Below, one piece after another: positions 2,281 through 33,680 of a stretch of DNA of 40,314 nucleotides. Below the pieces are notes generated by a model that saw nothing but the letters and a program-made list of their open reading frames with translations, was not told the DNA's origin and made no database searches. The stretch's first letter is position 1. Each line of letters opens with the position of its first letter. The DNA comes from a virus. The stretch lies in the IMG/VR virus record IMGVR_UViG_3300042882_000060, positions 1 to 40,314 of that record, one strand, 5' to 3'. The translations under genes and the position numbers were made by a program.

Positions 2281-2780
2281 TAGAAGTCGTCAGTCTCTTT
2301 GGTGACTTCCACGTTCATAACAGGAGATGAATCAACTACAGCGGAAGATTTATTATCTTTGTTATTTATGTCTTTCTTATCCGATGCCGCTTTAGTCTTT
2401 TTGTTCAATTTGACTTCTTCTTTTAGTTTTGCTATTTCAATTTTTAGGGAATCACATTCAGTTTCTTTGCGAATGTATTCTTTTTTCATATCATTGAACT
2501 GTGCCGTGATTGTATCTAGATGTGATACCTTTTGCGACATAGCATTGAATTGTTCTTCCCATCTTCTAGCATTGTTGCGTGTAGAATTTAGTTCGTCTAT
2601 ATCAGTCTCAAAGTTTTTCTTGTTCTGATTAAACTCGTCAATGATCCGATCTTTTTCGGCAATAATATTGTTAGCGATCTTCAACTTAGTTCTTAGTTGA
2701 AGAATCTCGTTTAGATAAGAATGTAAAGTTTCTACAGTCTGTTCAACGAATGTATTGATATATGTTGTTTGATCACTCAT
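2280..2780 (-). CDS. Coiled-coil protein between fibre genes
   Basis: A 166-aa protein of unknown function. Residues about 15-125 are dominated by E, K, I, L and N with heptad-like spacing (for example KLKIANNIIAEKDRIIDEF and CDSLKIEIAKLKEEVKLNKK), which indicates a long coiled coil. The last 40 residues are charged and low in complexity (KDINNKDNKSSAVVDSSP) and probably disordered. There is no signal peptide or membrane segment. An AAGGA ribosome binding site lies 7 nt upstream of the ATG. It sits between two fibre genes and overlaps the next start by one base, so a structural or fibre-assembly (trimerisation or chaperone) role is plausible but only inferred. Confidence 0.75.
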   Translation of the reverse strand: MSDQTTYINTFVEQTVETLHSYLNEILQLRTKLKIANNIIAEKDRIIDEFNQNKKNFETDIDELNSTRNNARRWEEQFNAMSQKVSHLDTITAQFNDMKKEYIRKETECDSLKIEIAKLKEEVKLNKKTKAASDKKDINNKDNKSSAVVDSSPVMNVEVTKETDDF

Positions 2781-2794
2781 TACAAATTCCTTAT

Positions 2795-4180
2795 TTAGAA
2801 TGAACCTCCGTCAAGCATTGCAAATTCTGGTGTGCCTGCTGATGTTGATTGTAGTACCTGTCCTTCAAGTGTAGAAACTGCGACTCTGAGCGAACCTGAT
2901 GAATTGCCGAATAGAACACCGTTGTTGGAGAATGATGTTACACCAGTACCACCATACATGACATCAATAGTATTGGCATTCCATGTACCAGAAGTTAATG
3001 TGCCTACACCAGTAATACCACTATAATCACCTGAAAGTCTTTCTGTTCCTAGTGTTCCAGAAATAATATTTGCTGCATTAGAGAACGTCTGAATCAACAC
3101 AGTGTTGGTTTCATTCATGTATGAGTTAGCAGAGAAACCTACATAACCTGCATAGATGTTTGCACTAGCAGCGACGGCCGTTAATTCGTTGTTGACAGTT
3201 GAGATATAATTGTTACCTGCTGTGGTAACAACATCTATCCAATTGTTGATAGATGATGTGATAGTGTCTGTGTAACTATTTCCAGAAACACCAACGTATG
3301 TGGCATAGTTATTACCAGCAATAGTATATGCTTCAATGAATGTGTTCGTTGATGTTGTCAGAGCATTAGCAACATTTGCCATATCATAAATGGTATTGGT
3401 TACTTGCCAATTCGACCAGTTTGAATCTCTAACAATCTCTAAGTCTGTGTTAGATGCAATGTATGTGTTTAATGCTAGTGAGTTGTTACTTGTGAAGCCC
3501 CACTTATTTGCTGCCTCGACCCAGATGATGGTGGCATTACCTTGACGGTTACCACGGTTAACTTCAATACCAGCATTTTCTGTTGGTGACAGATCACCGG
3601 GTAGATCGGCATTTAGTGTTAGGATATTGTCACCAATTAATAGTGACTGTGTATTAGCATATGTTACTGTACCGCTAACAACTAGACTACCACCAATGTT
3701 TAAGTCGCCGGTGATATTACCACCATCCATTGTTAGATATACTTCAGAAGCGTGAGCATTTGCTGAAGCAGCGACATATTCTGCGTGAGAGTTGCTTGAA
3801 GCACCCACTAAGTCTGCATATGAGTTTCCAGAAGTGCCAACATATTGTGTATAAGAATTAGATGCATTAACAATAGATGCAGTATATGTTGCAGATGCGT
3901 TAACGGCATCATATGCTAAGTTTGCTCTATCAAATGCTACGTTTGCTCTAGCAAATGCAACGTTAGAACCGGTTCCACCATTATTTGCTCTATTGAAAGC
4001 ATTGATAGTATGATCAAGCCAATACTTACCGCCAATTTCTGTAACATACGCATTGTTTGCTGAACCGATGAATAACTTTTCAGAGTTATATGAATACGCA
4101 AGTTCCGCAGTAGCAAGAGATCCGTTGGCAGGTGCTGCTGTCGAACTGGATCTCTTAATTTGGATGATAGTATTAGACAT
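2795..4180 (-). CDS. Tail fibre-like protein
   Basis: A 461-aa virion protein. The N-terminus (MSNTIIQIKRSSSTAAPANG, ELAYSYNSEKLFIG) is an attachment-type domain shared with the gene at 1-2280. Residues 55-140 and 250-370 hold repeats of the form VGxSxNSYxxY and AFxRANxAFDRANLAY. Residues about 150-240 contain GGNITGDLNIGGSLVVSG and ILTLNADLPGDLSPTENAGI, a module frequent in T4-like fibre proteins. The C-terminus (GGTGVTSFSNNGVLFGN and QVLQSTSAGTPEFAML) is a common fibre-tip motif. No chaperone domain is present. The gene is followed by the coiled-coil protein. Which receptor it binds is unknown. Confidence 0.8.
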   Translation of the reverse strand: MSNTIIQIKRSSSTAAPANGSLATAELAYSYNSEKLFIGSANNAYVTEIGGKYWLDHTINAFNRANNGGTGSNVAFARANVAFDRANLAYDAVNASATYTASIVNASNSYTQYVGTSGNSYADLVGASSNSHAEYVAASANAHASEVYLTMDGGNITGDLNIGGSLVVSGTVTYANTQSLLIGDNILTLNADLPGDLSPTENAGIEVNRGNRQGNATIIWVEAANKWGFTSNNSLALNTYIASNTDLEIVRDSNWSNWQVTNTIYDMANVANALTTSTNTFIEAYTIAGNNYATYVGVSGNSYTDTITSSINNWIDVVTTAGNNYISTVNNELTAVAASANIYAGYVGFSANSYMNETNTVLIQTFSNAANIISGTLGTERLSGDYSGITGVGTLTSGTWNANTIDVMYGGTGVTSFSNNGVLFGNSSGSLRVAVSTLEGQVLQSTSAGTPEFAMLDGGSF

Positions 4181-32945: not shown

Positions 32946-33096
32946 AGCGGGCCCGTTCTGTTTCGAGGTGGAGCCCATACCCAAAGGTTATGCTGCTAGA
33001 GCAAATGCCTCATAGGCGTTGTTGTCGTTTGCCTTTACGATTTGCTTTCGATCTCCTTACGCCTTTACCACGTAGATCGATTCCCGGAACACCCCC
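32946..33096 (-). ncRNA. ssrA: Two-piece tmRNA, coding RNA piece
   Basis: Minus-strand RNA with 5' end at 33096: GGGGGUG, the 5' acceptor strand, pairs base for base with CACCUCC of the acceptor piece, including a G3-U70 wobble, the alanine identity element. It is followed by the D-loop-like UUCCGGGAAUCGAU. CGAUCU (33074-33079) and AGAUCG (33049-33054) can form a pseudoknot-1-type stem. The tag frame at 32988-33032 encodes ANDNNAYEAFALAA followed by UAA, a typical alphaproteobacterial proteolysis tag ending in LAA. A 5-bp hairpin (UGGGC/GCCCG, 32948-32977) follows; the exact 3' end is not determined. Role: rescue of stalled ribosomes and tagging of their products for degradation, together with host SmpB. 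Confidence 0.9.
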
Positions 33097-33097
33097 A

Positions 33098-33568
33098 TCA
33101 TAAAGAAACATATGGATTGGTCTTTCTCATTACAGATTTTAGTCTTCCACGATCCCATCCTTCTGGATGATCATCTAAAGAATACTGACCTTCTTTATCA
33201 CCATTGTTGAACCAGTATCTTTTGTTTCTGACTTTTCTACCATCAACATTTTTAGCATAACCAGATTCTCTCTTATGAAAAGGCAAATAATCTGGATCAT
33301 CCCTAAACTTTATATGCGGACCCCAACGTCTCATATTTGCTATTTTGGCGCCTTGTTTGGCGCCTTCACGAATAGCCAACAATCTACATTCTTCTGTGGA
33401 CATCAACTTTAGAAGGCCTTGCCAAGCAGCGTAGTCTTGCCATAGACCGTGTTGTTCATACAAAACACGGTGCGCCTCAGCATGTTCTTCCACAGATAGT
33501 TCTACTAAGTTTTCAGGATCATCATTCCCACCCATATGTTTAGGAATGATATGGTGTTTATGCTTCAT
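33098..33568 (-). CDS. HNH endonuclease inside the tmRNA intervening segment
   Basis: A 156-aa protein. The N-terminus HKHHIIPKHMGGNDDPENLV followed by ELSVEEHAEAHRVLYEQHG is a classical HNH motif, with its His-His, Asn and His positions. The C-terminal part contains YWFNNGDKEGQYSLDDHPEG and WDRGRL, a DNA-binding repeat type common in phage homing endonucleases. The AAGGA ribosome binding site begins two bases after the acceptor CCA, and the stop codon ends two bases before the first base of the coding RNA, with one base between. The gene therefore occupies virtually all of the segment removed during tmRNA maturation. Likely a homing endonuclease, by inference. Confidence 0.88.
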   Translation of the reverse strand: MKHKHHIIPKHMGGNDDPENLVELSVEEHAEAHRVLYEQHGLWQDYAAWQGLLKLMSTEECRLLAIREGAKQGAKIANMRRWGPHIKFRDDPDYLPFHKRESGYAKNVDGRKVRNKRYWFNNGDKEGQYSLDDHPEGWDRGRLKSVMRKTNPYVSL

Positions 33569-33578
33569 TGTTTCCTTA

Positions 33579-33645
33579 TGGTGGAGGTGGGGGGATTTGA
33601 ACCCCCGTCTCTTCCGCTTATTCTGCGTCTCTCAACGATCTAAGC
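33579..33645 (-). ncRNA. ssrA: Two-piece tmRNA, acceptor RNA piece
   Basis: Minus-strand RNA ending at 33579 with an encoded CCA tail. The T arm is a 5-bp stem GGGGG/CCCCC with a 7-nt loop UUCAAAU (33590-33606). Then comes the 3' acceptor strand CACCUCC, a discriminator A and CCA. The 5' region contains UAGAUCG (33636-33642), which is complementary to CGAUCUA in the coding piece (33073-33079), a 7-bp candidate for the helix holding the two RNAs together. The gene order, acceptor piece first, then intervening segment, then coding piece, is the circular permutation known in Alphaproteobacteria. The 5' end is estimated from the promoter. Confidence 0.9.
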
Positions 33646-33649
33646 ATAC

Positions 33650-33680
33650 TATTTATAGCATAGGTGATTTCAAAAGTCAA
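33650..33680 (-). promoter_or_regulatory. Dual early/late-type promoter for the tmRNA
   Basis: On the minus strand TTGACT (33675-33680) is followed after 17 bp by TATAAA (33652-33657), a near-consensus sigma70 promoter. The same -10 region is the exact T4 late element TATAAATA (33650-33657). The start would fall about at 33645, directly before the acceptor RNA. This would allow expression both by host-type polymerase and by the gp33-dependent late machinery. Confidence 0.7.

Follow-up and report, generated by a model that had tools for sequence, protein, structure and literature searches.

The intervening segment (IVS) of a permuted tmRNA gene in a 40,314-nt stretch of viral DNA (hereafter the window) is occupied by the gene for an HNH homing-type endonuclease, and the boundaries of this nesting are exact. 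On the sequence comparisons described below we consider it likely that the IVS of this permuted tmRNA carries a tmRNA-specific HNH homing element and that the segment is removed by ordinary tRNA processing. RNA processing thereby appears to give mobile genes a safe house that does not depend on a self-splicing intron. The arrangement would be a homing-type element in an RNA segment that is processed out, in a niche that we did not find described in the literature searched.

All features described here lie on the minus strand. The Rfam model of permuted tmRNA (RF04321, tmRNA_permuted) matches from 33640 to 32988 with 62.2 bits, against a gathering score of 47, and the alignment spans the full model (1-213), with the insert placed between the acceptor piece and the coding piece. 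The acceptor piece, which is the 5' half of the gene (33579..33640, as delimited by RF04321 and our detector), holds the T arm, the acceptor 3' strand CACCTCC, an A and the CCA (33581-33579). It is followed by the IVS of 482 nt (33097..33578), predicted to be absent from the mature tmRNA, and by the coding piece (32988..33096), which extends from the acceptor 5' strand GGGGGTG through the stop of the tag (33032-32988); the 3' tail of the tmRNA probably continues to about 32940. The two acceptor halves pair at 7/7 positions, G3-U70 included, and the tag reads ANDNNAYEAFALAA with an intact ALAA ending, so that the characteristics of a permuted tmRNA (acceptor pairing across the pieces, G3-U70, encoded CCA and ALAA tag) are all present. 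A promoter-like stretch for the precursor is found at 33650..33680, with TTGACT at 33680-33675, a 17-nt spacer and TATAAA at 33657-33652. The sequence TATAAATA (33657-33650) is also what we take to be the core of a T4-type late promoter, both promoter names being putative and based on matches to consensus sequences. The TTGAC box and TATAAATA are conserved in six aligned relatives, and T4-type genes, encoding gp32 and PhoH, are located near the tmRNA in the window.

The IVS starts with the left arm of a closing stem (TAAGGAAACA, 33569..33578), which includes the Shine-Dalgarno-like AAGGA of the endonuclease ORF. This ORF of 156 codons (33098..33568) runs from the ATG at 33568 to the TGA stop at 33100-33098. 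Its last codons form the right arm of the closing stem (33101..33110), and its stop is the UGA of a UGAU motif (33097..33100) that precedes the coding piece and can pair with ACCA at three of the four positions. A single base (U, 33097) separates the stop from the first base of the coding piece (G, 33096). An earlier note on this DNA had placed the ORF and its stop at these positions relative to the tmRNA ends, and had proposed that the endonuclease fills the segment expected to be removed in tmRNA maturation and needs no ribozyme to do so. All of this was borne out: the IVS runs from 33578 to 33097, the arrangement recurs in 15 tmRNA backgrounds (see below), and no group I intron family reached its gathering score in the window, RF04321 being the sole Rfam family that did. 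The possibility that the ORF is an endonuclease gene of a group I intron was rejected on this result and on the insertion site, which lies between the pieces and not in the T loop.

The window ORF matches the family phrog_655, annotated as homing endonuclease, with an E-value of 6.7e-15, and scores 20.6 bits against the Pfam HNH family, just below the cut-off of 21.4. A profile search against solved structures matched the protein to the HNH part of a maturase (E 2.3e-5). The predicted model (mean pLDDT 80) has strands at residues 3-6 and 21-24 and a helix at 26-40, the strand-strand-helix order of an HNH part. A Foldseek search with this model gave no match at E <= 0.001; in it, the HNH parts of Cas8f-HNH superposed to about 1 Å over 39-41 columns (prob 0.75-0.82). 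All 26 aligned family members match phrog_655 and, at E <= 0.01, Pfam HNH, and all of them share H5, H6, N20, H29 and H33, in line with the conserved His/Asn/His of HNH enzymes. Comparison of HNH gene pairs gave dN/dS ratios of 0.07-0.23 in seven of eight cases, several dS values being near saturation and the remaining pair having an infinite dS; these ratios indicate that the HNH ORF is under purifying selection.

Viral contigs were scanned with the window protein (the best 80 of 186 loci were taken) and with two C-terminal profiles (20 and 10 loci). A protein 100% identical to that of the window was found in the same placement in four IMG/VR contigs, so the arrangement is not an artefact of a single assembly. 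Fifteen distinct tmRNA backgrounds on viral contigs were found to have an HNH gene between the CCA and the coding piece and to show the IVS from end to end (the window, L006, L009, L106, L116, L117, L118, L119, L121, L122, L123, L124, L125, L126 and L128), the IVS measuring 464-531 nt; in a further case, L120, the left end is cut off at the end of the contig. Recurrence of this nesting in 15 tmRNA backgrounds excludes chance. At the Rfam gathering score, the HNH genes of L001-L008 and L029 are enclosed by a permuted tmRNA, those of some other loci have a tmRNA gene next to them or in the vicinity, and no tmRNA match was obtained for L061-L080; the other lineages with an HNH gene in the IVS were assigned by a purpose-made detector, and L117 by reading.

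Relatives of the gene also occur outside the IVS. In L017 and L108 sister HNH genes are located directly upstream of a short-IVS tmRNA, outside it. At eight further loci (L012-L016, L019, L024 and L030) the HNH gene stands head-to-head with a permuted tmRNA; here an upstream repeat overlaps the likely tmRNA promoter, so that binding to it could affect both genes. Beside an HNH gene of the same family in L033, a 6-kb stretch of the viral contig contains 22 tRNA matches. Among at least 120 loci that were surveyed without selection for HNH, and which are not a census, 98 contain a permuted tmRNA according to the detector, and one of these (L137) holds an HNH gene. A tblastn search of named phages with the window protein returned 13 Synechococcus-phage records, 0 of which cover 80% of the protein; in S-SRM01, S-SKS1, RB11-B and S-H34 the HNH gene is located between other genes, and ARAGORN detected no tmRNA within about 2.5 kb. 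The scans of bacterial genome contigs with C-terminal profiles of type A and type B gave no confirmed relative, a weak negative because each scan used two short patterns only.

The ends of the inserted gene take part in the fold of the tmRNA precursor. In all 15 lineages the stretch that follows the CCA forms base pairs with the final codons of the ORF. Pairs form in 164 of the 180 cells covered by the first 12 positions of the closing stem; swapping partners between lineages lowered this to 114 ± 6.9 (0/5000 as high), and sliding the arms to 84-105. For the acceptor and closing stem together 95.2% of the cells are paired. The figures given here for pairing and covariation are not probabilities, since they come from related rows that also served to derive the structure. 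For the combined stem the covariation score is 0.592 against 0.161 for shuffled rows (0/500; slid versions at most 0.161), 70 cells are changed on both sides against 25.0 (0/500), and two of the five measures are weak, i.e. the pairs changed on both sides (12/22 against 9.9, with 19/500 shuffles as high) and the further pair types (28 against 24.9, with 64/500 as high). The acceptor itself is paired in 105 of 105 cells and G3-U70 is present in each of the 15 HNH-bearing lineages. In folds of the whole precursor the mean probability of the closing stem is 0.86-1.00 in all 15. On these comparisons the endonuclease gene itself rebuilds the closing stem of the IVS, with many compensatory changes. 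The earlier note had called the IVS a neutral insertion niche. The niche recurs and is found both occupied and empty; it is not merely neutral, as the closing stem is made from the ends of the ORF. The Shine-Dalgarno sequence of the window ORF is inside the left arm of the stem, with a mean unpaired probability of 0.11 (0.00-0.78 in the other lineages). A competition between processing and translation for the same precursor, as had been suggested earlier, is therefore plausible in the window, but most relatives have an upstream hairpin of their own instead.

The exact fit at the 3' end is explained by a general feature of these tmRNAs, because the ORF uses the UGAU of the tmRNA itself as its stop. 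In the survey of at least 120 loci, 71 of the 98 IVS end in TGAT, most of them without a long ORF, and all but one position of the motif can pair with ACCA. In 10 of the 15 HNH-bearing lineages a single base separates the end of the HNH ORF from the coding piece; in the other five the ORF extends 12-27 nt into that piece. The fit as first proposed was thus correct with respect to the stop, which is one base before the coding piece, but is not specific to the endonuclease.

Indeed, genes that are unrelated to endonucleases end in the same way. In the same survey, 15 of the 40 IVS of at least 90 nt are covered to 60% or more by an ORF that has a Shine-Dalgarno sequence before it, whereas 0.88 would be expected from shuffles; the IVS of 1372 nt in L353/L354 and several surveyed IVS under 30 nt are probably misplacements by the detector. 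A family of small proteins of 38-44 aa (L253-L332; the best 80 of 220 loci) is encoded inside the IVS of a permuted tmRNA in 73 of the 80 loci, and in each of these 73 the stop is one base before the coding piece; two further loci are cut at the contig end and have the same gene end, and five are elsewhere. By reading, a hydrophobic stretch suggests that this is a membrane protein, and the ORF is under purifying selection (mean pS 0.441 and pN 0.060, from 22 of all 80 loci). L190 and L206 have, in addition, a further small ORF that overlaps it. Another family of small ORFs (MFK...PKYLGGK) was considered as a candidate that is specific to the IVS and rejected, since a 3-row profile placed only three of its 17 viral-contig loci in an IVS and 14 outside the tmRNA. 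As judged from these sequences, phage permuted tmRNAs repeatedly house protein-coding genes in their IVS. The presence of ORFs other than endonucleases in this niche implies that occupation alone is no proof of targeting.

A cultured example may be provided by the Methylophilales phage Melnitz (L333, tmRNA 358-810), in which an IVS of 142 nt contains a Shine-Dalgarno-like GGAG and an ATG that opens a frame of 54 codons running into the coding piece. This candidate ORF is unannotated: the stretch is annotated as SsrA only, and four Melnitz records contain the frame unchanged. The 17 loci matched by the 3-row profile, three of them in an IVS, have small ORFs similar to it. In the 469-kb Sinorhizobium phage Phosso (L081, around 2500-3300) there is an apparent permuted tmRNA with an IVS of several hundred nt, which ARAGORN missed and where no RNA gene is annotated. 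A different acceptor end was observed in L351, L352, L355, L356 and L357, whose permuted tmRNAs are related to that of L015: the acceptor piece apparently ends in CCTCCA-CCT, so that the CCA may not be encoded.

The distribution of occupied and empty alleles points to mobility of the HNH gene. Of 15 stretches with the coding-piece sequence of the window, seven have the ORF, seven have an IVS of 80-110 nt, and one is cut; the search of related phages for the same segment with and without the ORF, as proposed in the earlier note, thus yielded both. Three stretches of the same locus (L085, L089 and L097) have the same neighbouring genes as the window. In the empty IVS the stem directly follows the CCA, and the UGAU end precedes the coding piece. 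Compared with the empty L089/L085, the window has a foreign-looking patch on each side of the ORF. The left patch (33579..33625), i.e. the T-arm half of 47 nt, shows an identity of 0.62, with 0.95-1.00 for the preceding 19 nt; the right patch (33061..33096), i.e. the first 36 nt of the coding piece, shows an identity of 0.47, with 0.92-0.93 for the rest of that piece. With 0.73-0.86 for the surrounding genes and the promoter, no neighbouring region has an identity as low as that of the patch. Between the two empty loci, L089 and L085, the same regions are 0.98 and 1.00 identical. A patch of the tRNA-like domain around the window ORF is what would be expected of co-conversion. No donor of the window patch was present among 11 matches to a degenerate pattern, four of which are of the window type and the other seven all variants like L015.

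The flanks differ between carriers. The HNH-bearing L088 differs from L089 at 5/47 and 3/36 positions of the patch, three and three of which are acceptor-stem bases; around the L006/L088 ORF the changes thus concern mainly the acceptor stem, and the acceptor halves of L088 are those of L009 and L116. Outside the patch the coding pieces of the window and L088 are 0.94 identical, but their endonucleases have an identity of 66% and do not stand next to each other in the tree, so the two genes were probably acquired separately. Occupied and empty alleles at one locus, together with flanks of the co-converted kind, would be in keeping with transfer of the gene.

A tree of 74 HNH rows contains a group of 32 (SH-aLRT 91, not starred) with all 16 genes inside an IVS, ten adjacent to a tmRNA, three near one and three for which no tmRNA was found. 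Among the remaining 42 rows no tmRNA was found for 39, two are near one and one is adjacent, where the absence of a tmRNA means that none was found in the available flank, some contigs ending early. The label linked or unlinked requires at least six changes on the tree, against 24.1 with shuffled labels. The tree is based on few columns and has 35 open forks; before counting, 18 rows were removed as near-identical, and the homologues from Synechococcus phages are not among its rows. For L009, L012, L019, L023 and L108, and for others that lack an Rfam match at the gathering score, the tmRNA label was assigned by the detector or by inspection.

Directly before the start codon, most of the HNH genes that are linked to a tmRNA carry an inverted repeat whose core is of the TAAATA type. 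The core is present in 28 of 29 tmRNA-linked genes and also in 21 of 44 others, and the hairpin is absent from the window and from L005/L117. The 60 nt upstream of the gene resemble the start of the tmRNA coding piece: over 23 loci (25 without the window and L117) the summed match is 173, against 130 ± 4.4 and a maximum of 141 in shuffled sequences, with no clear separation between a locus's own tmRNA and those of others (911/10000). For L015, L020 and L024 the detector pairing scored low, and the coding start of L024 was set by eye. A promoter-side motif, whose pattern was picked after inspection, is found in 27 of 29 genes of the tmRNA group (the window, L120 and L053 excluded) and in two of 44 others; the match in L005 is the T arm of the tmRNA itself. 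The repeat may thus be a lead to the recognition site, but not a proof of it.

In the explanation that we favour, the permuted tmRNA precursor would be transcribed as one RNA, endonuclease gene included, in which the acceptor stem is extended by a closing stem of the bases after the CCA and the last endonuclease codons. Since this closing stem continues the acceptor stem, the RNA would still fold like an ordinary permuted pre-tmRNA, and RNase P and 3' maturation at the CCA would remove the endonuclease gene. The element would spread by cutting tmRNA genes that lack it, and repair from a carrier would copy the gene along with the adjoining tRNA-like sequence, i.e. homing with co-conversion, as the mosaic flanks suggest. 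In most relatives expression would be set by the upstream hairpin with its late-promoter-like core, as for I-TevI or SegB; in the window it may be set by the closing stem, which would hide the Shine-Dalgarno sequence.

The main rival is a passive niche, because other genes also live in the IVS: the HNH gene would have landed there by ordinary recombination and been kept as the segment is transcribed and tolerant, with no targeting of the tmRNA. We regard this as rather unlikely. The unrelated ORFs in the same place, i.e. the 73 of 80 loci of the 38-44 aa family and the 15 of 40 longer IVS where 0.88 would be expected in the survey of at least 120 loci, are what it would predict, but it does not account for the fact that most tmRNA-linked HNH genes, whether inside, adjacent head-to-head or upstream, belong to one tree group, with 39 of the 42 rows outside it having no tmRNA nearby, nor for the foreign-looking patches on both sides of the gene. 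That the endonuclease gene is instead a domesticated resident, vertically inherited and regulating tmRNA maturation rather than homing, seems very unlikely. Purifying selection on the ORF, the Shine-Dalgarno sequence in the closing stem of the window and, in 10 of 15 lineages, a stop codon that adjoins the predicted RNase P site could all be read in this way; against it are the patchy presence at one locus, the sister genes outside the tmRNA in L017 and L108, and the comparison of the window with L006/L088, where neighbouring genes are shared and the coding pieces are 94% identical outside the patch while the HNH proteins are only 66% identical.

An insertion that destroyed the tmRNA, leaving a relic in which the match of the boundaries is coincidental, is most improbable. 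It would agree with the lack of an ARAGORN call on the window tmRNA, but ARAGORN also missed the three other HNH-insert tmRNAs that were tried (L006, L009 and L122), yet called four tmRNAs with an IVS of 80-177 nt (L085, L089, L133 and L190). Complete acceptor pairing, the constant G3-U70, the compensatory changes, the intact ALAA tag and an Rfam score above gathering all argue against decay, and gross decay of the tmRNA is already excluded by these sequence features. A last and more speculative reading, which we consider quite unlikely, is that the IVS is a general gene niche tied to tmRNA maturation, that IVS translation gates tmRNA production and that the D-arm is both homing site and operator. 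It would start from the unrelated ORFs that end on the UGA of UGAU, one base before the expected RNase P site, with last codons that form the closing stem. While translating such an ORF or terminating on it, a ribosome would keep the stem from closing and shield the cleavage site, and the HNH element would have taken over a switch that reads the availability of ribosomes; the D-arm of the tmRNA (GGATCGAC-like) would serve as the homing site and, copied beside the HNH promoter, as the operator.

The homing reading that we favour can be compared with several known systems. Permuted two-piece tmRNA genes are known from Alphaproteobacteria, Betaproteobacteria, Cyanobacteria and marine phages (RF04321; PMC11915505, PMC9004378), and phage-borne ones have been published, e.g. 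that of Melnitz, with 53 of 133 unique phage tmRNA structures being two-piece according to ARAGORN (PMC9004378). The window gene resembles these in the order of acceptor piece, IVS and coding piece, in G3-U70 and in the ALAA tag, but differs in its IVS, which in the HNH-bearing lineages measures 464-531 nt and is filled by an endonuclease gene. The parts consulted of a tmRNA survey from 2025 mention, as contents of an IVS, one tRNA-Ala and one repeat, and a protein-coding IVS was not found there (PMC11915505). The same source describes homing endonuclease genes of the LAGLIDADG type that lie within group I introns of the tmRNA T loop, 36 of 883 intron forms carrying one (PMC11915505). As in those introns, a homing endonuclease gene is located inside a tmRNA gene and is, here by prediction, removed from the RNA; in contrast to the self-splicing LAGLIDADG cases, the endonuclease is of the HNH type, no intron was found, and the two pieces stay separate.

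In phage T4 and its relatives, late promoters combined with hairpins that hide the ribosome-binding site time the expression of I-TevI, I-TevII, I-TevIII, SegB and Aeh1 MobE, and autorepression of I-TevI acts through a copy of its homing site on the promoter side (PMC2988022). The HNH domain followed by a separate C-terminal region and the putative co-conversion tracts are shared with T4 endonuclease genes such as MobA-E (HNH), SegB (at a tRNA cluster) and I-TevI, as are, in most relatives of the window gene, a putative late promoter with a hairpin over the ribosome-binding site; the promoter-side repeat may have its counterpart in the homing-site copy of I-TevI (PMC2988022). Unlike these T4 genes, which are found in introns or between genes, the present gene lies inside a single RNA gene and supplies part of the RNA fold. 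A protein gene in a segment that is removed without a ribozyme is found in archaeal rRNA introns with homing endonuclease genes and in 23S rRNA intervening sequences with ORFs; the present case differs from both in the RNA concerned, in the processing enzymes and in the pieces of the tmRNA, which stay separate. In the open literature searched, no description of a protein gene inside a tmRNA IVS, whether HNH or other, came to light, in agreement with the earlier statement that no tmRNA with such an arrangement was known.

Our results suggest that phage tmRNA precursors are protein-coding more often than annotated; in all four cases examined (the window, L006, L009 and L122), the long insert made ARAGORN miss the tmRNA. 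The cultured phage Melnitz, with its unannotated candidate ORF in the IVS, offers a laboratory system. For mobile endonucleases, the arrangement would add a niche that is harmless to the host gene, namely a segment that is cut out by ordinary tRNA processing and never re-ligated. Because the last codons of the element impose a constraint on it as RNA, the co-evolution of the element and its host RNA becomes directly testable.
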